Shown piece by piece: positions 14,881 to 48,056 of a stretch of DNA of 64,000 bases (the first letter of the stretch is position 1; each line of letters starts with the position of its first letter). The notes under the pieces are model-generated. The model made no database searches. It saw nothing but the letters and a program-made list of their open reading frames with translations, and had not been told where the DNA came from. Both the position numbers and the translations under genes were made by a program. This DNA is from Mesoterricola silvestris (lineage in GTDB: Bacteria; Acidobacteriota; Holophagae; Holophagales; Holophagaceae), in contig NZ_AP027080.1 of NCBI RefSeq assembly GCF_030295405.1, forward strand, positions 4,262,001 through 4,326,000, read 5' to 3'.

Positions 14881-17301
14881 ATGTGTGGAATCGTTTCCAT
14901 CTGCTACGGGGCGGAGAACCCCTGCCTCGGCTCCGAGGGGGGCGAGCTCCTCAAGCGCCTGGAGTACCGCGGGTACGACTCCACGGGCGGGGCCTTCGTG
15001 GGCGCCGGCGGCGCCATCCGCCTCCTCAAGAAGGTGGGCGCGCCCAGCCGCGTCGTCGTGGACCTGGGCATGGACCGGGAGGCGGGGCAGCGCTTCATCG
15101 GCCAGGTGCGCTGGGCCACCTACGGCGCCGTCACCGACGTGAACAGCCAGCCCCACCACGTGCGCTGCAAGGTGGAAATGGTGGGCGCCCACAACGGCAA
15201 CATCTCCAACACCGACGCCCTCAAGACCTGGCTGGGGGAGCGGGGCCACCGGGTCGTCTCCGACAACGACGGCGAGATGATCACCCACGTCGCGGAGGAG
15301 TTCTACGCGGCCAACCTGGAGGCCCCCGGCCCCGTGCTTGAGGGGGTTCGCCGCGGCGACGTCCCGGAAGCCGCGGTGCTCCTCATCGACGCGGCGCGCA
15401 AGGCCGACGCCAAGGGCGAGGGCTCGTACGCCGCCGCCTTCTGCGACCCCCGGGTCCCCGGGGTGGTGGCGGTGAAGTCCGGATCCTCCCTGTACGCGGG
15501 CCTGGGCACGGACGCCTTCGGGGAGTTCGTGGTGGTCTCCAGCGACCTCACCTCGGTGCTCAGCAAGACGCGGATGCTCATCCCCCTCGCCGAAGGGGAG
15601 GGCCTCTGGTTCACGGAGCGGGCGTATGCGGTCTTCCCGCTCGCGGGGCCCCTGGCCTTCTCCACGCCCCGGCCCAAGCGGTCCAAGCTCAACGTGCGCG
15701 ACACCGGCCTGAGGGCCCCCTTCCGCCACTTCATGGACCAGGAGATCGCCTCCTCCCCGGAGAACCTGGAGGGGATCCTCCGGTACTACTTCACGGACCC
15801 CGCCACCGAAGGCCTCTTCCACGCCTTCGAGGAGCGCCTGGACCTGTGCAAGGCCCTGCTGGCCAAGGTCGCCGCCCTGCACGAGGCCGTGGACGAATCC
15901 GGCCTGCGGGACGCCTTCCGGGGCCTGCGCGCCGATCCTCTGCACCTGGAGCTTTCCGCCTGGGTGCGGCCCCACCGCGCCGCCCTGGGCCCGGCGGGCC
16001 CGGTCTCCGACGAGCGCGCCCTGATGGCGGACCTGCTGCGCCTGGAACCCGGCGCGGGCGACGACGTGGCCCTCTACGATCACCTGACCGTGTGGAAGAA
16101 GCAGCGCCGGGTGACCCGCCACCTGCAGGACCTGGTGCACGCCATCCGCACCGCCACCGGCCGGGTCTTCCTGGTGGCCTCGGGCACCTCCCACCACGCC
16201 TCCCTGGTGGCGGCCTACTTCTTCAACAACCTCTCCGGCATCGGGGTGTTCCCCGTGAACCCCGGCACGTTCCGGTCCATGTACCTGAACACCCTGGCCC
16301 CCGGGGACCTGCTCATCGGCATCACCCAGTCCGGGGAGACCAAGGACCTGGTGGACATCTTCCAGGACGTGCAGGCCCGCATCCCCTCCCTGCGCCGCAT
16401 CGCCCTGGTGAACAACGAGAACAGCCGGATCCCCCAGGAACTGGTGGAGTTCTACCTGCCCATCCTCTGCGGTCCCGAGATCGCCGTGGCCGCCACCAAG
16501 AGCTTCCTCAACCAGATCGCCGTCCTCTACGTCATCGCCGCCTCCTTCTCCCTCACCGAGCGCAAGATCGCCGCCAAGCTGCGGGACGCGGCCGACCTGG
16601 TCACCCGCACCCTGGAGACCTGCGGCCCCGACGTGGAGGAGGCCGCCCTGCGCCTCCACCTGGAGCCCTCCCTGCACATCCTGGGCACCGGCCTCATCGG
16701 CCTGGCCCGGGAGGGCGCCCTGAAGATCCGCGAGGTGGTCCTCAACCACGCCGAGGGCTACGACGCCGCCGAATTCAAGCACGGCCCCAACACCATCCTG
16801 GGGAAGAACACGCTCTTCTCCATCGGCGACCTGGCCGGGCTCCTGGAGGGCTACGAGGCCAAGCGGGACGGACGGCCCTTCGCCGGCGGCATGGAGGCCC
16901 TGCGCACCTGGCCCGAACTGGTGGAGGCCCACTTCTCCAACTACCCCCTGCTGTTCGTGTGCCCTTCGGACGAGCGGGATGTGCGCATCACCATCAGCCA
17001 GATCCACACCCACAAGATCCGGGGCGCCGATATCCTGCTCATCGCCGAGCGCAACGCCGAACTGGCCATGGCCGTGGCGGGCAGGCCCTCCGGGCAGGAC
17101 CGCTACTGGTCCAAGTACCTGGAGGTCCCCCCCTCCTCCGACGGCAACCTCTTCGTGTTCGCCGCCTCGATCATGCTTCAGCGCCTGGCCTTCCGCATGT
17201 CGGTGCTGAAGATGGAGTACCTGGATGGACTCAAGGTGGTGGACCACGGCGTCCATCCCGATAGCCCAAAGAACGTTTCGAAGTCCATAACCGTCGACTA
17301 A
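14881..17301 (+). CDS. glmS: GlmS-family isomerising glutamine:fructose-6-phosphate aminotransferase, expanded form
   Basis: 806 residues against ~610 for ordinary GlmS. The N-terminal glutaminase begins MCGIVSICYG, with nucleophile Cys2 and RWATYGAVTDVNSQPHH. The motif FRHFMDQEIASSPENLEGIL marks the usual linker. The SIS domains carry VASGTSHHASLVA, TQSGETKDLVD, VAATKSFLNQIA, REGALKIREVVLNHAEGYDAAEFKHGPN and the C-terminal tail ending KSITVD, which corresponds to GlmS KSVTVE. About 120 extra residues (about 300-420) lie between the linker and the first SIS domain, and ~60 more near the C-terminus. It should make glucosamine-6-phosphate for peptidoglycan and LPS. Whether it is the only GlmS or a paralogue cannot be told here. 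Confidence 0.82.
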   Translation: MCGIVSICYGAENPCLGSEGGELLKRLEYRGYDSTGGAFVGAGGAIRLLKKVGAPSRVVVDLGMDREAGQRFIGQVRWATYGAVTDVNSQPHHVRCKVEMVGAHNGNISNTDALKTWLGERGHRVVSDNDGEMITHVAEEFYAANLEAPGPVLEGVRRGDVPEAAVLLIDAARKADAKGEGSYAAAFCDPRVPGVVAVKSGSSLYAGLGTDAFGEFVVVSSDLTSVLSKTRMLIPLAEGEGLWFTERAYAVFPLAGPLAFSTPRPKRSKLNVRDTGLRAPFRHFMDQEIASSPENLEGILRYYFTDPATEGLFHAFEERLDLCKALLAKVAALHEAVDESGLRDAFRGLRADPLHLELSAWVRPHRAALGPAGPVSDERALMADLLRLEPGAGDDVALYDHLTVWKKQRRVTRHLQDLVHAIRTATGRVFLVASGTSHHASLVAAYFFNNLSGIGVFPVNPGTFRSMYLNTLAPGDLLIGITQSGETKDLVDIFQDVQARIPSLRRIALVNNENSRIPQELVEFYLPILCGPEIAVAATKSFLNQIAVLYVIAASFSLTERKIAAKLRDAADLVTRTLETCGPDVEEAALRLHLEPSLHILGTGLIGLAREGALKIREVVLNHAEGYDAAEFKHGPNTILGKNTLFSIGDLAGLLEGYEAKRDGRPFAGGMEALRTWPELVEAHFSNYPLLFVCPSDERDVRITISQIHTHKIRGADILLIAERNAELAMAVAGRPSGQDRYWSKYLEVPPSSDGNLFVFAASIMLQRLAFRMSVLKMEYLDGLKVVDHGVHPDSPKNVSKSITVD

Positions 17302-17983: not shown

Positions 17984-19906
17984 ATGATCGAGAAGCTGGA
18001 CTATCAATCGGCGGGATTGATCTCGGGCCTGGAGGTGCACCAGCAGCTCCTGACGGCCCACAAGCTGTTCTGCCGCTGCCCGGCCGGCCTCTACACCCAC
18101 ACCCACGACGGCGAGGTGCTGCGGCACATGCGCCCGACCCTCAGCGAACTGGGCGAGTACGACGGCACCGCCCTCATGGAGTTCAAGACCCGCAAGGAGA
18201 TCATCTACCTCCTGAACCACCTCAACGTGTGCACGTACGAAATGGACGATACGCCGCCCTTCCTGGTGAACCAGGAGGCCATCGACGTGGCCATCGAGCT
18301 TTGCCTGGCCATGGGCATGGATATCATCGACGAGGTGCACATCGCCCGGAAGCAGTACCTGGACGGCTCCATCCCCACGGGGTTCCAGCGCACGGCCATC
18401 GTGGGCATGAACGGCGGGCTCCCCTTCAAGGGCCGCAGGCTCTCCGTGACGCACCTGTCCATCGAGGAGGACTCCTGCCGCGAGGTGAGCGACAAGGGCC
18501 ACCGCATCGTGTGGCGCACGGACCGCCTGGGCATGCCCCTCACCGAGACCGTCACGGGCCCCGATCTGCGCACCCCCGAGGAGGTGCGCGACGCCATCAC
18601 CCTCTGCGGGCTGGTGGCGCGCAGCACGGGCCGGGTGCGCACGGGACTGGGCGCGAGCCGGCAGGACGTGAACGTGAGCGTCGCCGGCGGCAGCCGGGTG
18701 GAGATCAAGGGCGTGCCCAAGGCGGGCTACGCCGTCAAGCTCGTGCACAACGAGGGGGTGCGCCAGGTGAACCTCCTGCGCTTCCGGGAGGAGCTTCACC
18801 GCCGCGGCATGCGCGAACCCGCCGATATCCGCACCTCCGCCGTGGACGTCTCGGAGATCTTCCAGGGGGTGGACCTGGGCTTCATGCAGCGCGCCCTGCG
18901 GGGCGGGGGCCGCATCTTCGCCGTCAAGCTCGAGGGCGGCCTGGGCCTGGCCCAGTTCCCCACCCAGCCCGACACCACGTTCCTGGACGAGCTGAGCGGG
19001 CGCATCCGGGTCATCGCGTGCCTGGACGAGGCGCCCATCGTGCTCAGCGGCCTGCACATGCCCGAATTCCCCGCCCGCCACCGGGTCCTGGACCGGGTGC
19101 GGCGCAAGCTGCGCCTGGGGGAGAACGACGACTACTTCATCGTCTTCGGCCCCGAGGCCGACTGCCGCACCGCGGCCGAGGAGATCCGCCTGCGCTTCGT
19201 GGACGCCCTCAAGGGCGTGCCCCAGGAGACCCGCCAGGCCATGGTGGGCGGCTTCACGACCTTCGAGCGGATCCTCCCCGGACCGGACCGCATGTACCCC
19301 GACACGGACTCGCCCCCCACCCGCATCACCCCCGAGCGGGTTGAGGCGGCCCGCGCCCGCATGAAGCCCACCCCCTGGGAGCGCTTCCACCAGTTCGGCG
19401 CCTGGCGCGTGCCCGCGGAAACCACGGAATTCCTCATCCGCCGGGGGGGCGTGGCCATCGTGGACGCGGTGGTGCAGCACACCGGCGTCGACGGCCTCGT
19501 GGCCGCCGTGGAGATCGGCCAGCGCGCCAAGGCGCTCCAGCGCCGCGGCATCCCCATGGAACGCCTGGGGGCCTCCGAATGGGTGCAGATCTTCGACCTC
19601 CTCACCGGGGGGCAGATCTCCCGGGAGGCCATCCCGGCCCTGGCCACCCACATGGCCACCCATCCCGGCAGCGACGCGGTGGCGGCCATGTCCGCCCTGG
19701 GCTTCGGGCTCCAGCCCCGGGAGGCCTGGTCCCGGCAGCTTGCGGGCCTTTCCATGGAGGACTACCGCATCGACCTGGGCGATTCCGACGGCAAGCGCCT
19801 GCGCTTCCTGGCCGGGCGCGCCATGAAGGACCTGCTCGGCAAGGCCCCGGCCCGGGACGTGGCCGACTACCTGAGGAACCGACTCACCCAGGAGGCCGCG
19901 CGATGA
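17984..19906 (+). CDS. gatE: Archaeal-type glutamyl-tRNA(Gln) amidotransferase subunit E
   Basis: 640 residues, the length of archaeal GatE and ~160 longer than bacterial GatB. The start MIEKLDYQSAGLISGLEVHQ and the motifs LNVCTYEMDDTPP, IDGSIPTGFQRT-like LDGSIPTGFQRTAIVG, SIEEDSCREV, RLGMPLTETVTGPDL, VRTGLGASRQDVNVSVAGG, RVEIKGVPK and PGPDRMYPDTDSPP are GatE signatures. An AspRS-like insertion (GAD-type; about 290-410) and a YqeY-like helical tail (about 500-640) complete it. GatE binds Glu-tRNA(Gln), activates it with ATP and accepts ammonia from GatD. AGGTGTGG precedes the ATG. gatD overlaps its stop. Bacteria normally use GatCAB or GlnRS, so this gene pair is unexpected here. Confidence 0.93.
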   Translation: MIEKLDYQSAGLISGLEVHQQLLTAHKLFCRCPAGLYTHTHDGEVLRHMRPTLSELGEYDGTALMEFKTRKEIIYLLNHLNVCTYEMDDTPPFLVNQEAIDVAIELCLAMGMDIIDEVHIARKQYLDGSIPTGFQRTAIVGMNGGLPFKGRRLSVTHLSIEEDSCREVSDKGHRIVWRTDRLGMPLTETVTGPDLRTPEEVRDAITLCGLVARSTGRVRTGLGASRQDVNVSVAGGSRVEIKGVPKAGYAVKLVHNEGVRQVNLLRFREELHRRGMREPADIRTSAVDVSEIFQGVDLGFMQRALRGGGRIFAVKLEGGLGLAQFPTQPDTTFLDELSGRIRVIACLDEAPIVLSGLHMPEFPARHRVLDRVRRKLRLGENDDYFIVFGPEADCRTAAEEIRLRFVDALKGVPQETRQAMVGGFTTFERILPGPDRMYPDTDSPPTRITPERVEAARARMKPTPWERFHQFGAWRVPAETTEFLIRRGGVAIVDAVVQHTGVDGLVAAVEIGQRAKALQRRGIPMERLGASEWVQIFDLLTGGQISREAIPALATHMATHPGSDAVAAMSALGFGLQPREAWSRQLAGLSMEDYRIDLGDSDGKRLRFLAGRAMKDLLGKAPARDVADYLRNRLTQEAAR

Positions 19907-21321
19907 GCGAACCGGAACGGGACGACCGATACCAGGGCTACCGCGGGCCCGCCCGCGCCGCCCTCGAGAGGTACGGCATCGGCGTGTGGAGCGAAGTGGA
20001 AGTGGTCAACGACCGGGGCTCCGTGTTCAAGGGCGTGATCCTGCCCCGCAGCGAGACCTTCGACGATCTCCACATCGTCATCAAGCTGGTCAACGGCTAC
20101 AACGTGGGCGTGGTGGCGAACCGCATCGCCTCGGCCCGGGAGCTGGGCTACAAGAAGGCCGTGTACCGCATCCCCGAGAAGGCCTTCCCGGTGGATTCCC
20201 GCAAGAAGAACGTCACCCTCCTGGGCACCGGCGGCACCATCGCCTCGCGCCTGGACTACCGCACCGGCGCCGTGATCCCGGCCTTCACCCCGGGCGAGCT
20301 GTACGGGGCCGTGCCCGAGCTTGCCGACATCGCCAACATGGACACCAAGAAGCTCTTCGGGGTCTTCAGCGAGAACATGGGCCCCGAGCAGTACATCGCC
20401 CTGGCCAAGGCCATCGGCGAGGAGATCAAGCGCGGCGTCGACGGCATCGTCATCGGCCACGGCACCGACACCATGAGCCACACGGGCGCCATCCTCAGCT
20501 TCATGGTCCAGAACTCCCCCGTGCCCATCGTCCTGGTGGGGAGCCAGCGCAGTTCCGACCGGCCCTCCTCCGACGCCGCCCTCAACCTCATGAACGCCGT
20601 GCGCACCGCGGCCGAGTGCGACATCGCCGAAGTGATGCTCTGCATGTTCGGGCCCACCTCCGACAACTACGACCTGCTCCACCGGGGCACCCGCTGCCGC
20701 AAGATGCACTCCAGCTACCGGAGCACCTTCCGCACCATCGGCGCCACCCCCCTGGCCACGGTGTCCCGGGACCGGGGCGAGAACGGGCAGTACTTCAAGT
20801 ACCTCACCGACGACTTCCTCAAGCGCGACAAGACCCGGGTCCCCATCATCAACCCGTCCTTCGAGGAAAAGGTCACCATCCAGTACTACTACCCCAACTT
20901 CAACCCCGACATCATCGACGGCCTGTCCAGCATGGGCTACCGGGGCATGGTCATCGCCGGCACGGGCCTGGGCCACATCAACAAGCCCCTCTACCCCGCC
21001 GTGAAGCGCGCCATCGAGAAGGGCATGACCGTCGTCATGACGGTCCAGACCATCTGGGGCTACGCCCAGATGTACGTGTACGACACCGGCCGCGACCTCC
21101 TGAACCTGGGCATCATCCCCATGGACAACATGCTCCCCGAGACCGCCTACATGAAGCTGGCCTGGGTGCTGGGCCAGACCGACGACCCCGCCGAGATCCG
21201 CCGCATGCTCCTGGCCCCCGTGAACCACGAGATCACCCCCCGGGAGCCCCACAACGGCTACCTGGTCCTCCAGGGCGGCCTTCCGGAGGTGGAAGCCTTC
21301 ATCGGGCAGCACTGGAAGTAG
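19903..21321 (+). CDS. gatD: Archaeal-type glutamyl-tRNA(Gln) amidotransferase subunit D (asparaginase-like)
   Basis: 472 residues starting in an ATGA overlap with gatE. Residues ~20-95 form the Tudor-like N-terminal domain specific to GatD (VEVVNDRGSVFKGVILPRSE; NGYNVGV). The L-asparaginase domain follows with the catalytic set by position: Thr112 in LLGTGGTIAS, Thr188-Asp189 in IGHGTDTMSHTGA, and Lys267 in TRCRKMHSSY. The spacing matches the Thr-Thr-Asp-Lys tetrad of archaeal GatD. It hydrolyses glutamine and passes ammonia to GatE to make Gln-tRNA(Gln). Free type I or II asparaginases lack the N-terminal domain, so this is not AnsA. All catalytic residues are present, so the pair looks functional. 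Confidence 0.93.
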   Translation: MSEPERDDRYQGYRGPARAALERYGIGVWSEVEVVNDRGSVFKGVILPRSETFDDLHIVIKLVNGYNVGVVANRIASARELGYKKAVYRIPEKAFPVDSRKKNVTLLGTGGTIASRLDYRTGAVIPAFTPGELYGAVPELADIANMDTKKLFGVFSENMGPEQYIALAKAIGEEIKRGVDGIVIGHGTDTMSHTGAILSFMVQNSPVPIVLVGSQRSSDRPSSDAALNLMNAVRTAAECDIAEVMLCMFGPTSDNYDLLHRGTRCRKMHSSYRSTFRTIGATPLATVSRDRGENGQYFKYLTDDFLKRDKTRVPIINPSFEEKVTIQYYYPNFNPDIIDGLSSMGYRGMVIAGTGLGHINKPLYPAVKRAIEKGMTVVMTVQTIWGYAQMYVYDTGRDLLNLGIIPMDNMLPETAYMKLAWVLGQTDDPAEIRRMLLAPVNHEITPREPHNGYLVLQGGLPEVEAFIGQHWK

Positions 21322-21340: not shown

Positions 21341-21495
21341 TCATCCCCTTCATCCCCTTCATCCGATCCATCCCCGTTCCCGCAGGGCCAGAGCCGGGGT
21401 GGGGCGGCGCGTGGTTGTTCGGCATGCTCCGACCCATCCCTGCCTCGGCCCTGCGGGAACGGGGATGGATCGGATCAAGGGGATGAAGGGGATAA
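21341..21495. repeat. Repeat family B: large hairpin with 49-bp arms
   Basis: Arms at 21341-21389 and 21447-21495 are reverse complements with about 2 mismatches. The arms contain repeated TTCATCCCC units and end with GTTCCCGCAGGGCC. The 57-nt centre also partly self-pairs. It lies in the 240-bp gap between the convergent gatD and lipoprotein genes; a terminator role is possible. Confidence 0.92.
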
Positions 21496-21561: not shown

Positions 21562-22164
21562 TTACTGCTGTCCGTCCGCCGCGCGCCACGCGGGGTCGAT
21601 GGTGGACTTGACCTGGGCCTTGGCGTCCTTCATGAGGTTCTGGCTGGCGTCCTTCAGCTGCTCCCGCTTCCAGGCGCTGGGCAGCTGGGGCTTGGCCTGC
21701 TCGTAGGTGGGGAAGCCCTGGTCCTGGCCGGCGGCCTTGGCGCTGGCGGCCACCTTGTCGTAGAAGGCCTTGAGCTGGGCCTCGGTGGGCTCGATCTTGG
21801 AGATGGCCTTCTCCATGAGGATCTGTCCGTAGGCGTTGGACTTGGCGGCCTCCACCAGGAGCCTGGCCTTGGGATCCTTGTCCAGGCCCTGCTTGTCGCC
21901 GTACTTGGTCATGACCTTCTGGTCCACGAATTCGGCCAGGAGGCGGTTCCGCTGCTCCTTCATGGCGGGGCTGGTGAGGATCTCCACGGCCTTGGCCTCG
22001 TCGCCGACCAGGGTGCGCACGGATTCGCCGAAGCCCTTCTCGGTGATCTTTTCTCCGTCAATGTTGGCCAGGACCTTGGAGGTATCCTTGGACACCTTGG
22101 AACAACCCAGGGCCACGACCACCAGCCCGCACATCCCCATCATCCGCGCGAAGCGCATATCCAT
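21562..22164 (-). CDS. SurA/PrsA-like lipoprotein lacking a PPIase domain
   Basis: 200 residues. MDMRFARMMGMCGLVVVALGC is a lipoprotein signal with lipobox VALGC (Cys21). The mature part begins like SurA_N/PrsA chaperones: VLANIDGEKITEKGFGESV, a long helical region MKEQRNRLLAEFVDQKVMTKYGDKQGLDKDP, and PTEAQLKAFYDK just before where a parvulin domain would begin. The sequence then ends in a helical tail with no rotamase domain. It probably acts as a periplasmic chaperone. TTAGGAGA lies 6 bp before the ATG. Confidence 0.75.
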   Translation of the reverse strand: MDMRFARMMGMCGLVVVALGCSKVSKDTSKVLANIDGEKITEKGFGESVRTLVGDEAKAVEILTSPAMKEQRNRLLAEFVDQKVMTKYGDKQGLDKDPKARLLVEAAKSNAYGQILMEKAISKIEPTEAQLKAFYDKVAASAKAAGQDQGFPTYEQAKPQLPSAWKREQLKDASQNLMKDAKAQVKSTIDPAWRAADGQQ

Positions 22165-22232
22165 GCTTTTCTCCTAAACATTTCAGTTCCAGAATGACAT
22201 CGAAGGCATACCCTGCCTAGCGAGGAAGCGCC

Positions 22233-22529
22233 ATGTCGCCCCAGGAATTGCTTAAGGATTTGAATCTCGAGGTTTATACCGCCTCCTGGTGCCCGGACTG
22301 CCGGCGCCTGGAGCGCTGGCTGGGGGAGGCGGGGGTGCCCCACGCCTCCGTGGACATCGAGGCGGTGCCCGGCGCCGCGGAGCGCCTGGAGCGGGAGACC
22401 GGGAAGCGGGCCATCCCCTTCATCCTTGTGGACGGGAAGCGATGGGTCCGGGGCTACCACCGGGAGCTGGCCCAGCGCCTGGACCCCGATCTTCTGGTCC
22501 GGGAGCTATTGGGGGCGGCGGAAGGCTGA
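22233..22529 (+). CDS. Glutaredoxin-family protein
   Basis: 98 residues with a thioredoxin fold: LEVYTASWCPDCRRLERWL (active site CPDC), a central VPHASVDIE, and the cis-proline segment KRAIPFILVDGKRWVRGY. It belongs with short glutaredoxin/NrdH-like reductases. AGGAAG precedes the ATG. It is divergent from the lipoprotein gene and 38 bp upstream of mreB. Confidence 0.82.
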   Translation: MSPQELLKDLNLEVYTASWCPDCRRLERWLGEAGVPHASVDIEAVPGAAERLERETGKRAIPFILVDGKRWVRGYHRELAQRLDPDLLVRELLGAAEG

Positions 22530-22567
22530 AAATCATGGCAATCTAGTAAATTCCGTTGGAGTGATCA

Positions 22568-23611
22568 GTGCCTACCCCCTTCTCGAGCCAATTCTGGTCC
22601 AATCTGTTCACGTCGGACCTCGCCATCGACCTGGGCACCGCCTCGGTGCTGGTGTACACCCGCCAGGCCGGCCGTATCGTCGTTTACGAACCGTCCATTG
22701 TCGCCCTCAACACCCAGACCCACGAGGTGGAGGCCGTGGGGGACGAGGCCAAGCAGCTCCTGGGCCGCACCCCCCAGGGCGTGCAGACCATCCGGCCCAT
22801 GAAGGACGGGATGATCTACGAGGTGGACGCCGCGGAGAAGATGCTGGCGGCCTTCATCAAGAAGGCCCGGCCCAACCGGGGCATCGCCCGCACCCGCATC
22901 GTGGTGAGCGTCCCCCCCCGGGCCCACCAGGTGGCCCGCAGGGCCGTGAAGCAGGTGTGCTACGACGCCAAGGCCGGCGAGGTCTTCCTGGTGGACCAGA
23001 CCATGGTGGCCGCCATCGGGGCCGGACTCGCCATCAACGAGAAGCGGGGCTGCATGATCGTCGATATCGGCGGCGGCACCACGGACGTGGCGGTCATCTC
23101 CTACAACGGCAAGGTCTTCTCCGATTCCATCCTGGTCGCCGGCGACGAGATGGATGAAGCCATCATCAAATACATCCGGGAGAAGTACAACGTCCTCATC
23201 TCCGAGGCCGCCGCCGAGGAGGTGAAGTGGAGCCTGGGCTCCGCCTACACTTCCGACAAGACCCGCACCATGAGCATTTCCGGCCGGGACCAGTTCGAGG
23301 GGCTGCCCAAGACGCTCACCCTCAACGACACCGAGATCCGGGAGGCCCTGGCCGAACCCATCAGCGCCATCATCGACCTGGTGCGCAAGGCCCTGAACGA
23401 GACCCCGCCCCAGCTGGCCGCGGACCTCATCGACCGGGGCATCTGCCTCACCGGGGGCGGTTCCAAGATCCAGGGCCTGGACGTGCGCCTCAGCAAGGAG
23501 ACCCACCTCCCCTGCTACCGCGCCGAGAACCCCGAGACCGCCGTGGTGCGCGGCACCGCCATGCTCCTGGAGGACATCCCCTTCCTGAGGCGCATCCAGA
23601 TCCTGGACTAG
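22568..23611 (+). CDS. mreB: Rod-shape-determining protein MreB
   Basis: 347 residues from a GTG start (MPTPFSSQFWSNLFTSDLAIDLGTASVLVY). Actin-fold motifs: phosphate-1 DLAIDLGTASVLVY, phosphate-2 CMIVDIGGGTTDVAVISYNG, adenosine motif GICLTGGGSKIQGLD. An N-terminal amphipathic stretch precedes the fold. It forms membrane-bound filaments that position the cell-wall elongation machinery. First gene of the mreB-mreC-mreD-mrdA-rodA cluster, with 3 bp or overlapping spacing throughout. Confidence 0.96.
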   Translation: MPTPFSSQFWSNLFTSDLAIDLGTASVLVYTRQAGRIVVYEPSIVALNTQTHEVEAVGDEAKQLLGRTPQGVQTIRPMKDGMIYEVDAAEKMLAAFIKKARPNRGIARTRIVVSVPPRAHQVARRAVKQVCYDAKAGEVFLVDQTMVAAIGAGLAINEKRGCMIVDIGGGTTDVAVISYNGKVFSDSILVAGDEMDEAIIKYIREKYNVLISEAAAEEVKWSLGSAYTSDKTRTMSISGRDQFEGLPKTLTLNDTEIREALAEPISAIIDLVRKALNETPPQLAADLIDRGICLTGGGSKIQGLDVRLSKETHLPCYRAENPETAVVRGTAMLLEDIPFLRRIQILD

Positions 23612-23614
23612 TCC

Positions 23615-24502
23615 ATGCGCCGCAGAGCCTGGGGCTGGAACCCGACCGGACGCAGGCGCTGGGCCATCCTGGTGCTCCTGCTGGGGCACTTCCTTTGGAT
23701 CCTCCTGGGCCGGGGCACCTCCAACCGCTGGCGCCACCTGCTGGACATGCTGTCCGCCCCTTCCCGGGCCGTGTCCGCCCGGGTGGAAATCTGGCGGGAC
23801 AACCGCCGCCAGAAGGTGTCCACCTACCGGGAGGCGGTGGCGGAGGTGGAGCGCCTGCGGGCCCAGGTGGCCGCCTTCCAGGCCGCCCGGGACGCCGCCG
23901 CGCCGCGCCTGGCCGAGGCGGAGGAGGCCACCCGCCTGCTGGGCCTGAAGAAGCTCCTGCCCCTGACCTTCAGTTCCGCCCGCATCGTATCCAATGTCCG
24001 CCGCGCGCCCTTCGGCGGCATGATCCTGGACCAGGGCCGGGACGGGGGGCTCCAGCCCGACCAGGGCGTCATCTGCCCGGACGGGGTGGTGGGCCGCATC
24101 TGGGACGTGGGTGCCACCCAGGCCAGCCTCCTGCCCCTGGACGCCTACAACGCCTCCACGGGGGTCATGCTGGCCCGCAGCCGGGCAACAGGCGTGCTGC
24201 AGGGCCTGGGACCGGGCAAGGCCGCCCTGCGCTACATTGGGAGCCAGGAGGTCGTCCAGGTGGGTGAGCCCGTGTACACGTCGGGTCTTGACCGCAATTT
24301 CCCCCGGGGCCTCCTGGTGGGCTACGTCACCTCCGTGCGCCCCCGGGAGACGGAACTCCAGGTGGAAGTGGGCCTTGCCGCCCCCCTGGACCGGGTGTCG
24401 CTGGTGCTGATCCTGCCCCCCCGCCCGCAACTGGAGCTGCAGCCGCCCGCGCCCCCGCCCCAGGCCGCCAAGCCCGGCCGGAAGCCCAAGGTCGCCCCAT
24501 GA
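23615..24502 (+). CDS. mreC: Rod-shape-determining protein MreC
   Basis: 295 residues: one N-terminal TM helix (about 16-33), a periplasmic coiled coil (about 65-110), and a beta-barrel domain typical of MreC with SARIVSNVRRAPFGGMILDQGRDGGLQPDQGVI-like strands and GEPVYTSGLDRNFPRGLLVGYV. A proline-rich C-terminal tail (about 268-295) is extra. MreC links MreB with PBP2/RodA in the periplasm. Confidence 0.93.
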   Translation: MRRRAWGWNPTGRRRWAILVLLLGHFLWILLGRGTSNRWRHLLDMLSAPSRAVSARVEIWRDNRRQKVSTYREAVAEVERLRAQVAAFQAARDAAAPRLAEAEEATRLLGLKKLLPLTFSSARIVSNVRRAPFGGMILDQGRDGGLQPDQGVICPDGVVGRIWDVGATQASLLPLDAYNASTGVMLARSRATGVLQGLGPGKAALRYIGSQEVVQVGEPVYTSGLDRNFPRGLLVGYVTSVRPRETELQVEVGLAAPLDRVSLVLILPPRPQLELQPPAPPPQAAKPGRKPKVAP

Positions 24503-24978
24503 CCGGCCAGACCGCCCCCATGCTGCGCCGCCATGCCATCGCCCTGGCGGCCCTGGCCGGCATCCACTTCACGGCGCCCTGGCCGGGCATCCAGGCCATC
24601 TTCCACGTGTTCCTCGTCCTGGGCTTGGCGCCCGGCTTCTCCACCCCCCTCCAGGGCCTGGGCTGGGCCCTGGCCGGCGGATGGGTCCTGGAAGGCACGA
24701 TGCGGGTCTACCCGCACCTGGGCGGCACCCCCCTGGCCAACATGCTGGTGTGCCTCCTGGCCTACTGGCTGGCCATCCAGTGGCCGCCCCACTCCCGCAA
24801 CCCCTTCTGGGGCCGGTGCGCGGCCCTGGCCGCCTTCCACTGGTTCCTGGCCAACCTTCTGGTGCGCTTCGCGGCGGGTCCCCACGCCTGGGGCTACGGG
24901 TGGGTCTGGACCCTGGCGGCCATCCCCCTGTGGGCGACCCTGGCCCTGCGGCTCCACCCCCCCATCCATCGGAGGTAG
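24499..24978 (+). CDS. mreD: Rod-shape-determining protein MreD
   Basis: 159 residues, almost wholly hydrophobic with about five TM helices, starting in an ATGA overlap with mreC. Sequence identity in this family is low, so the call rests on topology, size and its place between mreC and the PBP2 gene. It is part of the elongasome in the inner membrane. Confidence 0.85.
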   Translation: MTGQTAPMLRRHAIALAALAGIHFTAPWPGIQAIFHVFLVLGLAPGFSTPLQGLGWALAGGWVLEGTMRVYPHLGGTPLANMLVCLLAYWLAIQWPPHSRNPFWGRCAALAAFHWFLANLLVRFAAGPHAWGYGWVWTLAAIPLWATLALRLHPPIHRR

Positions 24979-24981
24979 CCG

Positions 24982-26853
24982 GTGGAGATCCTGAACCGAA
25001 GCCTCATCCACCGCCGCATCGCCGTCATGCGCACCGTGAGCCTGTGCATGATCCTGGGCCTGGTGCTGGCCTACGGCTGGGTGCAGCTGGGCCTGCGGAG
25101 CGAGATGCAGCACCTGGCCTTCTCCCAGGCCGTCAAGACCCGCGCCACCCCGGCCCCCCGGGGCATCATCTTCGACCGCAACGGCAACAAGATCGTGGAC
25201 AACCGCCGGGCCCTGCACCTGGTGATCCAGAACGAGGACCTGCCTTCGGACCCCGCGCAGATCGATGCCCTGGCCCTGAGCCTCCAGCTGGAGCCCGACC
25301 AGCTGCGGCGCCGCATCCAGGCCATTCGCCAGGCCGCGGGCAGCCGCATGCTCACCCTCATGGACAACCTGGACGATTCGGCCCTCGCCCGGGCCGAGGT
25401 GCTGCGCGCGCGGTTCCCCTTCCTCAGCATCGAAGTGGCCCCCCGGCGGGTGTACCTGGGCCAGGACCTGGCCGGCCACGCCCTGGGCTACGTGGGTGAG
25501 GTGACCCCCGCCGAGCTGGAGAAGAACCCCGACCGCTACCAGCTGGGCGAGATCATCGGCCGCACCGGCTTCGAGGCGTCCCGCAACGACCGCCTGCGGG
25601 GCGTGGACGGCCAGCGCCGGATCCTGGTGGACTACCTGGGCCGGGAAGTGGCGGTGTTCGGCCTGAACGAGGCCAAGCCCGGGCGCAGCGTCTACCTCAC
25701 CCTGGACGCGGGCCTCCAGCAGACCCTGAAGGACGCCCTGGGGGGGGAGAACGGCGCGGGCGTGGTGCTGGACCTGCGGGACGGCGGCATCCTGGCCATG
25801 TACTCCAGCCCCTCGTACGACCCCAACATCTTCCTGAACCGCCTCACCCAGGAGCAGGTGGACAAGTACTGGAACAACCCCGAGCGCCCCATGCTGGACC
25901 GGGTCACCCAGGGCCGCTACGCCCCCGGCTCCACCTTCAAGCTCCTGGTGGCGCTGTGCGCGCTGGAGAAGGGCATCATCACCCCCGAGACCGTCTTCCA
26001 TTGCGGAGGCCACAAGGTCTTCTACAACCGCGATTTCCGCTGCGACGCCACCCACGGGTCCGTGAACCTCGTCCAGGCCATCGCCCGGAGCTGCGACATC
26101 TACTTCTACGAGCTGGGCATGCGCCTGGACATCGACGACATCTACGCCACCGCCGCCAAGTACGGGCTCACCGTGCCCACCGGCGTGGACCTGCCCCACG
26201 AGGCCGTGTCGCGGGTGCCCAGCCGGGAATGGAAGAAGCGGGTGAAGAAGGAGAAGTGGTGGCCCGGGGAGACCGTCAGCGTGGCCATCGGCCAGGGCGC
26301 CAACAGCCTCACCCCCATCAGCCTGGCGCGCTTCTACGCCATGCTGGCCACCAAGGGCAAGCTCCTCACGCCCCACCTGCTCTACGGCATCCTCCCCGAG
26401 GGCAGCCGGACCATGGAGGCCTTCCAGCCGCCCCCGCCCAAGGACACCGGCCTGGACCCGAAGATCCAGGCGGTGCTTGAGGAGGGCCTCTACGAAGTGG
26501 TGCGCTCGGGCACCGCCGCGGCCTCCGCCGTGCCGGGGGTGACGATGGTGGGCAAGACCGGCACCAGCCAGGTCACCACCTTCGTGGACAAGAGCCACTA
26601 CGCCAAGCTCGCGAAGAAGTACAAGGACAACGCCCTCTTCGCGGGGTACGCCCCCCGGGAGAACCCCCAGATCGCCTTCGTGGTGGTGGCCGAGAACGCC
26701 GGCTTCGGCGCCTCCAGCGCGGCCCCCGTGGCCAAGAAGCTCGTCCAGTACTGGTTCATCGACCGCCTCAAGAAGCCCCTGCCGCCGCCCTCGGCCAAGC
26801 TCCCCGACGAGTTCGCCCCGCCCCAGCCCCAGGAAGGCGGGGAGGAGCCATGA
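24982..26853 (+). CDS. mrdA: Penicillin-binding protein 2 (elongation transpeptidase)
   Basis: 623 residues from a GTG start 3 bp after mreD. TM anchor at ~17-36, PBP dimerisation domain (ATPAPRGIIFDRNGNKIVDN onward) and transpeptidase domain. Catalytic motifs: SxxK as GSTFK (Ser317), SxN position as SCD in ARSCDIYFYELG, and KTG in VGKTGTSQ. It cross-links peptidoglycan during lateral growth together with RodA. The C-terminus is a proline-rich extension. The next gene, rodA, overlaps by 4 bp. Confidence 0.95.
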   Translation: MEILNRSLIHRRIAVMRTVSLCMILGLVLAYGWVQLGLRSEMQHLAFSQAVKTRATPAPRGIIFDRNGNKIVDNRRALHLVIQNEDLPSDPAQIDALALSLQLEPDQLRRRIQAIRQAAGSRMLTLMDNLDDSALARAEVLRARFPFLSIEVAPRRVYLGQDLAGHALGYVGEVTPAELEKNPDRYQLGEIIGRTGFEASRNDRLRGVDGQRRILVDYLGREVAVFGLNEAKPGRSVYLTLDAGLQQTLKDALGGENGAGVVLDLRDGGILAMYSSPSYDPNIFLNRLTQEQVDKYWNNPERPMLDRVTQGRYAPGSTFKLLVALCALEKGIITPETVFHCGGHKVFYNRDFRCDATHGSVNLVQAIARSCDIYFYELGMRLDIDDIYATAAKYGLTVPTGVDLPHEAVSRVPSREWKKRVKKEKWWPGETVSVAIGQGANSLTPISLARFYAMLATKGKLLTPHLLYGILPEGSRTMEAFQPPPPKDTGLDPKIQAVLEEGLYEVVRSGTAAASAVPGVTMVGKTGTSQVTTFVDKSHYAKLAKKYKDNALFAGYAPRENPQIAFVVVAENAGFGASSAAPVAKKLVQYWFIDRLKKPLPPPSAKLPDEFAPPQPQEGGEEP

Positions 26854-27935
26854 GGGAGCGCCTGCGCGCCCTGGACACGGCCCTGCTGTGGCCCATGGTC
26901 CTCCTGGTGATCATGGGCACCCTGACGGTCTATTCCGCGGGCCGGGGCACGGTCCAGTCCACCCTGTGGGCCAAGCAGACCGTGTGGAACCTCATGGGCT
27001 TCGCCGTCATGGCCTTCCTGGCGAGCCTCAATCCCAAGCGCATCCTCCGCAGCGGGTTCCCCCTCTACGTCGTGGGCATCCTGTTCCTGGCCCTGGTGCT
27101 GGTTGCGGGGCGCAAGATCGGGGGCTCGCAGCGCTGGATCGTGCTGGCCGGCCTCACCTTCCAGCCCAGCGAGCTCATGAAGTGGCTGACCCTGCTGTTC
27201 GTGGCGCACCGCCTGGGCACGCGCCAGCCCCAGGACCTCACGGCCCGGGACCTGGCCGGCGTCTCCGCCCTGGTGTTCTTCCCCATGCTCCTGGTGCTCA
27301 AGCAGCCCGACCTGGGCATGGCGGTGAGCTTCCTGCCCATCCTGGTGCTGATCCCCATCCTGAAGGGCCTGCGGGCCAAATGGGTGGCCCTGACCCTCGT
27401 GCTGATGACCCTGGGCGGCGTGGTGGGCTGGCAGAAGGCCCTCAAGCCGTACCAGAAGCAGCGCATCCTCACCTTCCTGGACCCCGGGGCCGACCTCAAG
27501 GGCAAGGGCTACCAGATCAACCAGAGCCGCATCGCCATCGGCGCCGGCGGCCTCACCGGCCAGGGCTTCACCTCCGGCAGCCAGACCCAGCTCAATTTCC
27601 TGCCCGTGAAGACCACGGACTTCGTCTTCTCGGTGTGGGCCGAGGAGCGCGGGTTCCTGGGCGTCCTGCTGGCCCTGGGCCTCTTCGGGCTGGTGCTCAC
27701 GCGGATCCTGGACACGGCCGTGGCCGCCAAGAGCGCCTCGGAGACCTACTTCTGCGTGGGGGCCGCGGGCATCATCGCCCTGCACCTGCTCGTCAACGTG
27801 GGCATGGTCATCGGGGTGCTGCCCAACAAGGGCATCGTGCTGCCCTTCTTCAGCGCCGGCGGGAGCAGCACGCTCAGCTACTTCCTGGGGCTGGGGGTGG
27901 TGATGGCGGTGCGGCACCGGGCGCAGATCAAGTAG
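26850..27935 (+). CDS. rodA: Peptidoglycan glycosyltransferase RodA
   Basis: 361 residues with about ten TM helices and SEDS-family motifs: QRWIVLAGLTFQPSELMK, VLKQPDLGMAVSF, YQINQSRIAIGAGGLTGQGF, LPVKTTDFVFSVWAEERGFLG and the C-terminal LPFFSAGGSSTLSYFLGLG. It polymerises lipid II in complex with the PBP2 encoded just upstream. The ATGA overlap with mrdA indicates coupled translation. Confidence 0.95.
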   Translation: MRERLRALDTALLWPMVLLVIMGTLTVYSAGRGTVQSTLWAKQTVWNLMGFAVMAFLASLNPKRILRSGFPLYVVGILFLALVLVAGRKIGGSQRWIVLAGLTFQPSELMKWLTLLFVAHRLGTRQPQDLTARDLAGVSALVFFPMLLVLKQPDLGMAVSFLPILVLIPILKGLRAKWVALTLVLMTLGGVVGWQKALKPYQKQRILTFLDPGADLKGKGYQINQSRIAIGAGGLTGQGFTSGSQTQLNFLPVKTTDFVFSVWAEERGFLGVLLALGLFGLVLTRILDTAVAAKSASETYFCVGAAGIIALHLLVNVGMVIGVLPNKGIVLPFFSAGGSSTLSYFLGLGVVMAVRHRAQIK

Positions 27936-29942
<2,007 letters not shown>

Positions 29943-47876: not shown

Positions 47877-48056
47877 CCAGCCCCTTCTTTCATCCCCTTC
47901 ATCCTGTTCATCTTTTTCATCCCCGTTCCCGCAGGGCCAGAGCAGGGATGGGTCGGCGCATGCAGATCGATGACGCGCCGGCCCACCCATCGCTGGCCCT
48001 GCGGGAACAGGGATGGATCGGATGAACAGGATGAAGGGGATGAAAGAAGGGGCTGG
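47877..48056. repeat. Repeat family B: giant hairpin with 64-bp arms
   Basis: Arms 47877-47940 and 47993-48056 pair at about 59 of 64 positions. Outer ends CCAGCCCCTTCTTTCATCCC / reverse complement; inner ends GTTCCCGCAGGGCCAG / CTGGCCCTGCGGGAAC. The 52-nt centre includes GCAGGGATGGGTCGG. It fills much of the 350-bp gap between two converging minus/plus features and directly follows the 3' end of the PLP-enzyme gene. Confidence 0.93.

Follow-up and report, generated by a model that had tools for sequence, protein, structure and literature searches.

A bacterial GatDE amidotransferase co-occurring with GlnRS in Mesoterricola silvestris

The window analyzed here, a stretch of 64,000 nucleotides from the chromosome of Mesoterricola silvestris (Acidobacteriota, Holophagaceae; NZ_AP027080.1, positions 4,262,001 to 4,326,000), carries on its forward strand the genes gatE (17984-19906, 640 amino acids) and gatD (19903-21321, 472 amino acids), encoding subunit E of a Glu-tRNA(Gln) amidotransferase and its asparaginase-like amidase subunit D. 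Two reviews of 2021 and 2022 present GatDE as restricted to archaea (PMC8007984, PMC9499178). A preliminary description of the window had taken the same position and suggested that a transferred GatDE could have replaced the native route to Gln-tRNA in this bacterium. The sequence comparisons reported here show that the pair belongs to a bacterial GatDE branch, whose members are found in many phyla and mostly in genomes that also encode glutaminyl-tRNA synthetase (GlnRS).

The gatE-gatD pair and its locus

GatE scores above the cut-offs of the profiles NF003107 (472 bits, cut-off 456) and TIGR00134 (406 bits, cut-off 320), and GatD above those of TIGR02153 (480 bits, cut-off 324) and NF003217. 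With the bacterial gatB model TIGR00133, GatE reaches 107 bits, below the cut-off of 315. These scores rule out a GatB and an asparaginase misnamed as GatE and GatD, and bear out the genuine archaeal type assigned to the pair in the preliminary description. The best solved structures for both subunits are those of Pyrococcus abyssi (1zq1) and Methanothermobacter thermautotrophicus (2d6f), matched over nearly the full length (best E 5e-92 for GatE with 1zq1_C/2d6f_C, 1e-111 for GatD with 1zq1_A/2d6f_A), residues 4-629 of 1zq1_C being aligned to residues 1-636 of GatE. The structure of GatE predicted by AlphaFold from 15 bacterial sequences has a mean predicted local distance difference test score (pLDDT) of 83 and is closest to 1zq1_C (template modelling score 0.83 by target) and 2d6f, then to GatB chains, with AspRS chains among its weak Foldseek matches.

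Alignment of GatE with its counterparts from both archaea and with the GatB of the same genome locates two catalytic-site motifs common to GatB, Glu17-x-His19 within GLEVH (18032-18040) and Glu161-Glu162-Asp163 (EED, 18464-18472), which are intact, as is PGPDRMYPDTDSPP. An AspRS-like insertion (amino acids ~273-405, 18800-19198) aligns with archaeal GatE and faces a gap in the GatB. The helical and tail domains, which correspond to the tRNA-binding region (amino acids ~449-640, 19328-19903), are predicted to fold, with a pLDDT mostly of 70-95, and are unusually divergent among bacteria. In GatD, the GatD_N domain (PF18195, E 1.5e-12) occupies amino acids 29-75 (19987-20127) and accompanies the Asparaginase domains PF00710 and PF17763, while Thr112 (20236-20238), Thr188-Asp189 (20464-20469) and Lys267 (20701-20703) are all kept in the alignment, exactly as numbered in the preliminary description, which was also right about PGPDRMYPDTDSPP and the insertion of GatE. 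The gatE stop and the gatD start overlap in ATGA (19903-19906); this intact arrangement, E preceding D, is confirmed by the open reading frames (ORFs), the curated profiles and the full-length structural alignments.

Both genes are devoid of stops and display a ratio of non-synonymous to synonymous substitution rates (dN/dS) of 0.20-0.30 against a genome of the same genus (G001) and a Holophagaceae contig (L111), indicating that they are under purifying selection. The host genome is a single contig of 4.99 Mb, 98% complete. In G001, also a one-contig genome, the pair occupies the same position, and the sequence downstream of it matches window 21575-28715. The ORFs downstream of the pair, resembling mreB, mreC, a penicillin-binding protein gene, rodA and ligA, form bacterial surroundings, in agreement with the earlier statement that the window is otherwise bacterial. 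A relic or a contaminant, which the apparent redundancy with GlnRS and GatB could suggest, is very improbable in view of the dN/dS values, the absence of stops and the synteny; contamination in particular is ruled out by the single closed contig and the syntenic copy. In L111 and in another genome of the family (G011), the match to the window at the DNA level is confined to the gatE-gatD pair, which seems to be located elsewhere in both.

Upstream of the pair, the window encodes a GlmS-like protein of 806 amino acids with glutaminase and SIS domains (14881-17301), which is longer than the 607-position glmS model and remains under its cut-off (283 of 418 bits). Flavoprotein-like and multihaem-cytochrome-like ORFs separate the glmS-like gene from gatE in G001 (L105, 2575-4871) and are missing from the window, where a 680-bp gap is found instead. 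Just 3' of gatD lies a palindrome (21343-21493) with two arms of 71 nucleotides that are 87% complementary. Its core, CCCTTCATCC, occurs in 6 copies in the window for 0.3 expected, including a second facing pair at 47895/48038. It was classed as similar to repetitive extragenic palindromes or miniature inverted-repeat transposable elements (REP/MITE-like), the Rfam microRNA matches at this place being under the gathering score.

Distribution and phylogeny of bacterial GatDE

With aligned acidobacterial GatE sequences as query, a search through 84,980 species genomes retrieved at least 569 relatives, and the best 80, which were recorded, are all bacterial. The view of GatDE as archaeal, as taken up in the preliminary description, is thus faithful to the reviews but not to this distribution. 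The phyla represented among these 80 are Acidobacteriota, Aminicenantes, Myxococcota/Deltaproteobacteria, Eisenbacteria, Planctomycetota, Bacteroidota, Ignavibacteria, Chlorobiota, Cloacimonadota, Neomarinimicrobiota, Krumholzibacteriota, WOR-3, Caldisericia and others. The cultured Perlabentimonas gracilis is one of them, and the closest named relative by GatE is the Holophagaceae metagenome-assembled genome (MAG) represented by L111 (81% identity). The preliminary description had advised looking for the pair in the same phylum: GatE exceeds the cut-off in 41 of 297 Acidobacteriota genomes, and the case is not a one-off. On contigs reaching far enough, gatD nearly always follows gatE, the two mostly overlapping slightly or lying a little apart, so that most relatives share the layout of the window or a similarly tight one. 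Beyond gatD, no widely conserved neighbour giving a hint of function was found across the 86 loci compared.

In the GatE tree (69 rows), a branch with a Shimodaira-Hasegawa-like approximate likelihood ratio (SH-aLRT) support of 100 splits the bacterial sequences from the three archaeal ones, and GatD gives the same split and the same nearest neighbours. The phylogeny called for in the preliminary description yields a separate bacterial branch, but one that extends over many phyla instead of being confined to this bacterium. Acidobacteriota do not group together but are interspersed at several points with other phyla; the group containing the window mixes Holophagaceae with Myxococcota and Eisenbacteria; lateral transfer within Bacteria would be the simplest reading of this mixing. 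As for mobile elements, no bacterial plasmid covers most of GatE. A haloarchaeal megaplasmid of Natrinema thermotolerans (L191) contains a GatE-like stretch without a listed gene, with an open frame of 448 amino acids and a very long branch.

Gln-tRNA machinery of the GatDE-encoding bacteria

The genome of M. silvestris encodes GlnRS (TIGR00440, 716 bits, cut-off 426), AsnRS (436 bits, cut-off 343), GluRS and AspRS, both of bacterial type, and a true GatB separate from GatE (512 bits), GatB being the GatCAB subunit covered by the search. Because all of these are found in the same closed genome, the native Gln-tRNA route was not replaced, contrary to the initial proposal. The presence of AsnRS fits the accompanying remark that Asn-tRNA would need this or another enzyme. 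Two tRNA(Gln) genes, CTG and TTG, figure among the 44 tRNA matches of the genome, and no third, archaeal-like tRNA(Gln) was found. The GlnRS and GluRS genes adjoin (C1:4708830-4711305, L041), and in the tree of GluRS sequences the branch leading to this GluRS is very long.

Among Acidobacteriota, GlnRS occurs in 40 of the 41 genomes with GatE and in about 148 of the 256 without it (Fisher 4e-8), and GatB in 17 of 41 and about 221 of 256, respectively (Fisher 2e-9), partial matches having been tallied by eye and the tests ignoring kinship, a reservation that also bears on the role proposed below. The lone GatE-encoding genome without GlnRS (G064) encodes GatB and has a completeness of 75%. Within each of the families f2, f42 and f49, the genera with GatE have GlnRS and lack GatB, whereas their sister genera without GatE have GatB and lack GlnRS. 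Among 50 GatE-encoding genomes of many phyla, a full GlnRS was found in 42, a partial match to it in 4 more and GatB in 21.

Individual genomes refine this pattern. G037, which has GlnRS and GatDE and lacks GatB, retains according to the GluRS trees both GluRS paralogues of its relative G039, which has GatB and lacks GlnRS. One of them is a GluRS2-like form without the Arg of discriminating GluRS, and the conservation of both is expected if GatDE took over from GatCAB. GluRS2-like paralogues generally lack this Arg; in the GatDE carriers examined, the single GluRS retains it. G359, a Neomarinimicrobiota MAG (L151/L201), encodes GatDE and two GluRS, the second of which keeps the Arg, and neither GlnRS nor GatB was found in it. 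Several genomes of its class have two GluRS and no GlnRS; most of them have GatB, and G359 has only GatDE. This is suggestive of a GatDE-only bacterium, as a candidate and a lead only. On the one-contig chromosome of a Phycisphaerales member (G345; L127, CP070718.1), GatB and GatDE occur with a GlnRS reduced to a C-terminal fragment (3598641-3598940).

The intactness of the genes had favoured replacement of the native route, and G359 indicates that such a replacement may exist elsewhere. The GlnRS and GatB of M. silvestris refute it for this genome, and the presence of GlnRS in nearly all the GatE-encoding Acidobacteriota and in at least 42 of the 50 other genomes leaves it hardly any likelihood.

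Possible roles of bacterial GatDE

We consider it somewhat more likely than not that bacterial GatDE works alongside GlnRS, amidating Glu-tRNA(Gln) in a repair or auxiliary role. GatD would free ammonia from Gln or Asn, and GatE would activate the gamma-carboxylate of the Glu carried by tRNA(Gln) and then amidate it, as in archaea. Glu-tRNA(Gln) formed by a misacylating or non-discriminating GluRS would in this way be converted into Gln-tRNA(Gln), a task performed elsewhere by GatCAB, and in lineages switching from GatCAB to GlnRS the residual amidation would be taken over by GatDE. The reaction would be auxiliary since GlnRS is present. Such a role is supported by the matches to equivalog hidden Markov models and solved structures, the active sites, the dN/dS values, the coupling of gatE with gatD, the association with GlnRS and with the lack of GatB, and the cases of G037 and G359. 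The conserved residues support GatDE chemistry; the substrate and the role are inferred.

Several points weigh against this auxiliary role. Both tRNA(Gln) genes of the host have the bacterial U1-A72 pair and not A1-U72, the identity pair of archaeal tRNA(Gln) (PMC9499178). The host GluRS, of bacterial type, has Arg at the Thermus Arg358 site, and the sole GluRS found in three other carriers (G115, G119 and G129) likewise has the Arg of discriminating enzymes, so that little Glu-tRNA(Gln) may be made in these four genomes; the diagnostic value of this Arg does not extend to all phyla (PMC3927822). As the host has GatB, even a repair role may be redundant. Finally, when measured against the core, bacterial GatE conserves its insertion and tail far less well than archaeal GatE does or, for the tail, bacterial GatB, which is surprising if the enzyme serves a single fixed tRNA. 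Pairs of bacterial GatE with 40-46% total identity share 64% in the N-terminal catalytic part, 31% in the insertion, 23% in the helical domain and 15% in the tail. The two archaeal structures, 53% identical in total, share 58%, 56%, 41% and 37% in the same parts, and in a control comparing the GatB of M. silvestris with seven others (44% in total) the catalytic, helical and tail parts share 53%, 33% and 32%. Moreover, bacteria have about 29 nearly invariant positions, most of them in the catalytic part, at which both archaeal structures differ from them. Judged from these alignments, the catalytic part of the bacterial branch is under constraints of its own, and constraint on its tRNA-binding parts is loose.

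This pattern gives some weight to a changed substrate, Glu borne by another tRNA, by a particular isoacceptor or modified form of tRNA(Gln) or by a carrier other than tRNA, outside the general supply of Gln-tRNA. The bacteria-specific positions and the contrast between catalytic part and tail argue for it, and with GlnRS, AsnRS and a GluRS that appears to be discriminating the classical job is not needed, a source of Glu-tRNA(Gln) being apparently lacking in several hosts. Against it, GatE retains its domain architecture down to the helical and tail domains, which are predicted to fold, no conserved partner gene points to another pathway, and the association with the GlnRS and GatCAB state points to the Gln-tRNA system; we hold a changed substrate to be rather unlikely. 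More broadly, and as a tentative proposal, bacterial GatDE could represent either a separate subfamily whose Glu acceptor has changed or a further Gln-tRNA arrangement, in which GatDE takes the place of GatCAB in the company of GlnRS and some lineages have GatDE alone with two GluRS, missed by surveys based on GluRS, GlnRS and GatCAB.

A conditional function can also be conceived, in which GatDE is not a repair enzyme but a back-up source of Gln-tRNA that takes its amide from Asn during shortage of free Gln. GatD is an amidase of the asparaginase type, and three gatED loci, each from a different phylum (L134, L165 and L184), have a gene for glutamine synthetase in the vicinity. Three loci of 86 are little, and near the gatE-gatD pair of the window no promoter, terminator or RNA-family signal supporting regulation was found, which makes this function improbable.

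With archaeal GatDE (1zq1, and 2d6f with tRNA-Gln), the bacterial enzyme shares both full-length subunits, the catalytic residues, the AspRS-like insertion, the helical and tail domains and GatD_N. It differs by its bacterial hosts, the overlapping gatE-gatD order, a GatE identity of 31%, its own invariant set around the catalytic part with divergent tRNA-binding parts, the U1-A72 pair of the host tRNA(Gln) and its coexistence with GlnRS, which archaea lack. GatB and GatE have a common catalytic cradle, and some bacteria, such as Bdellovibrio, likewise have GatCAB together with GlnRS and AsnRS (PMC4206432), but GatE falls far below the gatB cut-off, contains an insertion domain that is not in GatB, and is served by an asparaginase-like GatD and not by GatA. 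Type I asparaginases share the fold and catalytic residues of GatD, which differs from them by its extra N-terminal domain, its scores with GatD equivalog models and its coupling to gatE.

The annotation itself is not new, NCBIfam models being already able to label such genes GatE and GatD. No paper describing bacterial GatDE was found in the open-access literature searched, and neither the family in bacteria nor its co-occurrence with GlnRS nor the way it diverges appears to have been described. A survey of the Gln-tRNA machinery in 366 bacterial genomes sorts them by GluRS, GlnRS and GatCAB without mention of GatDE (PMC3927822). The rule that a bacterium with GlnRS and without GatCAB has no amidating route (PMC3927822) is undercut by the sizeable share of such Acidobacteriota that carry GatDE. 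The 2022 review ties the archaeal lack of GlnRS to the co-evolution of GatDE and tRNA(Gln) (PMC9499178), a link made directly testable by the scores of bacterial genomes in which GatDE and GlnRS occur together. Arguments on whether the last universal common ancestor had GatDE likewise call for a fresh look that takes the bacterial branch into account.

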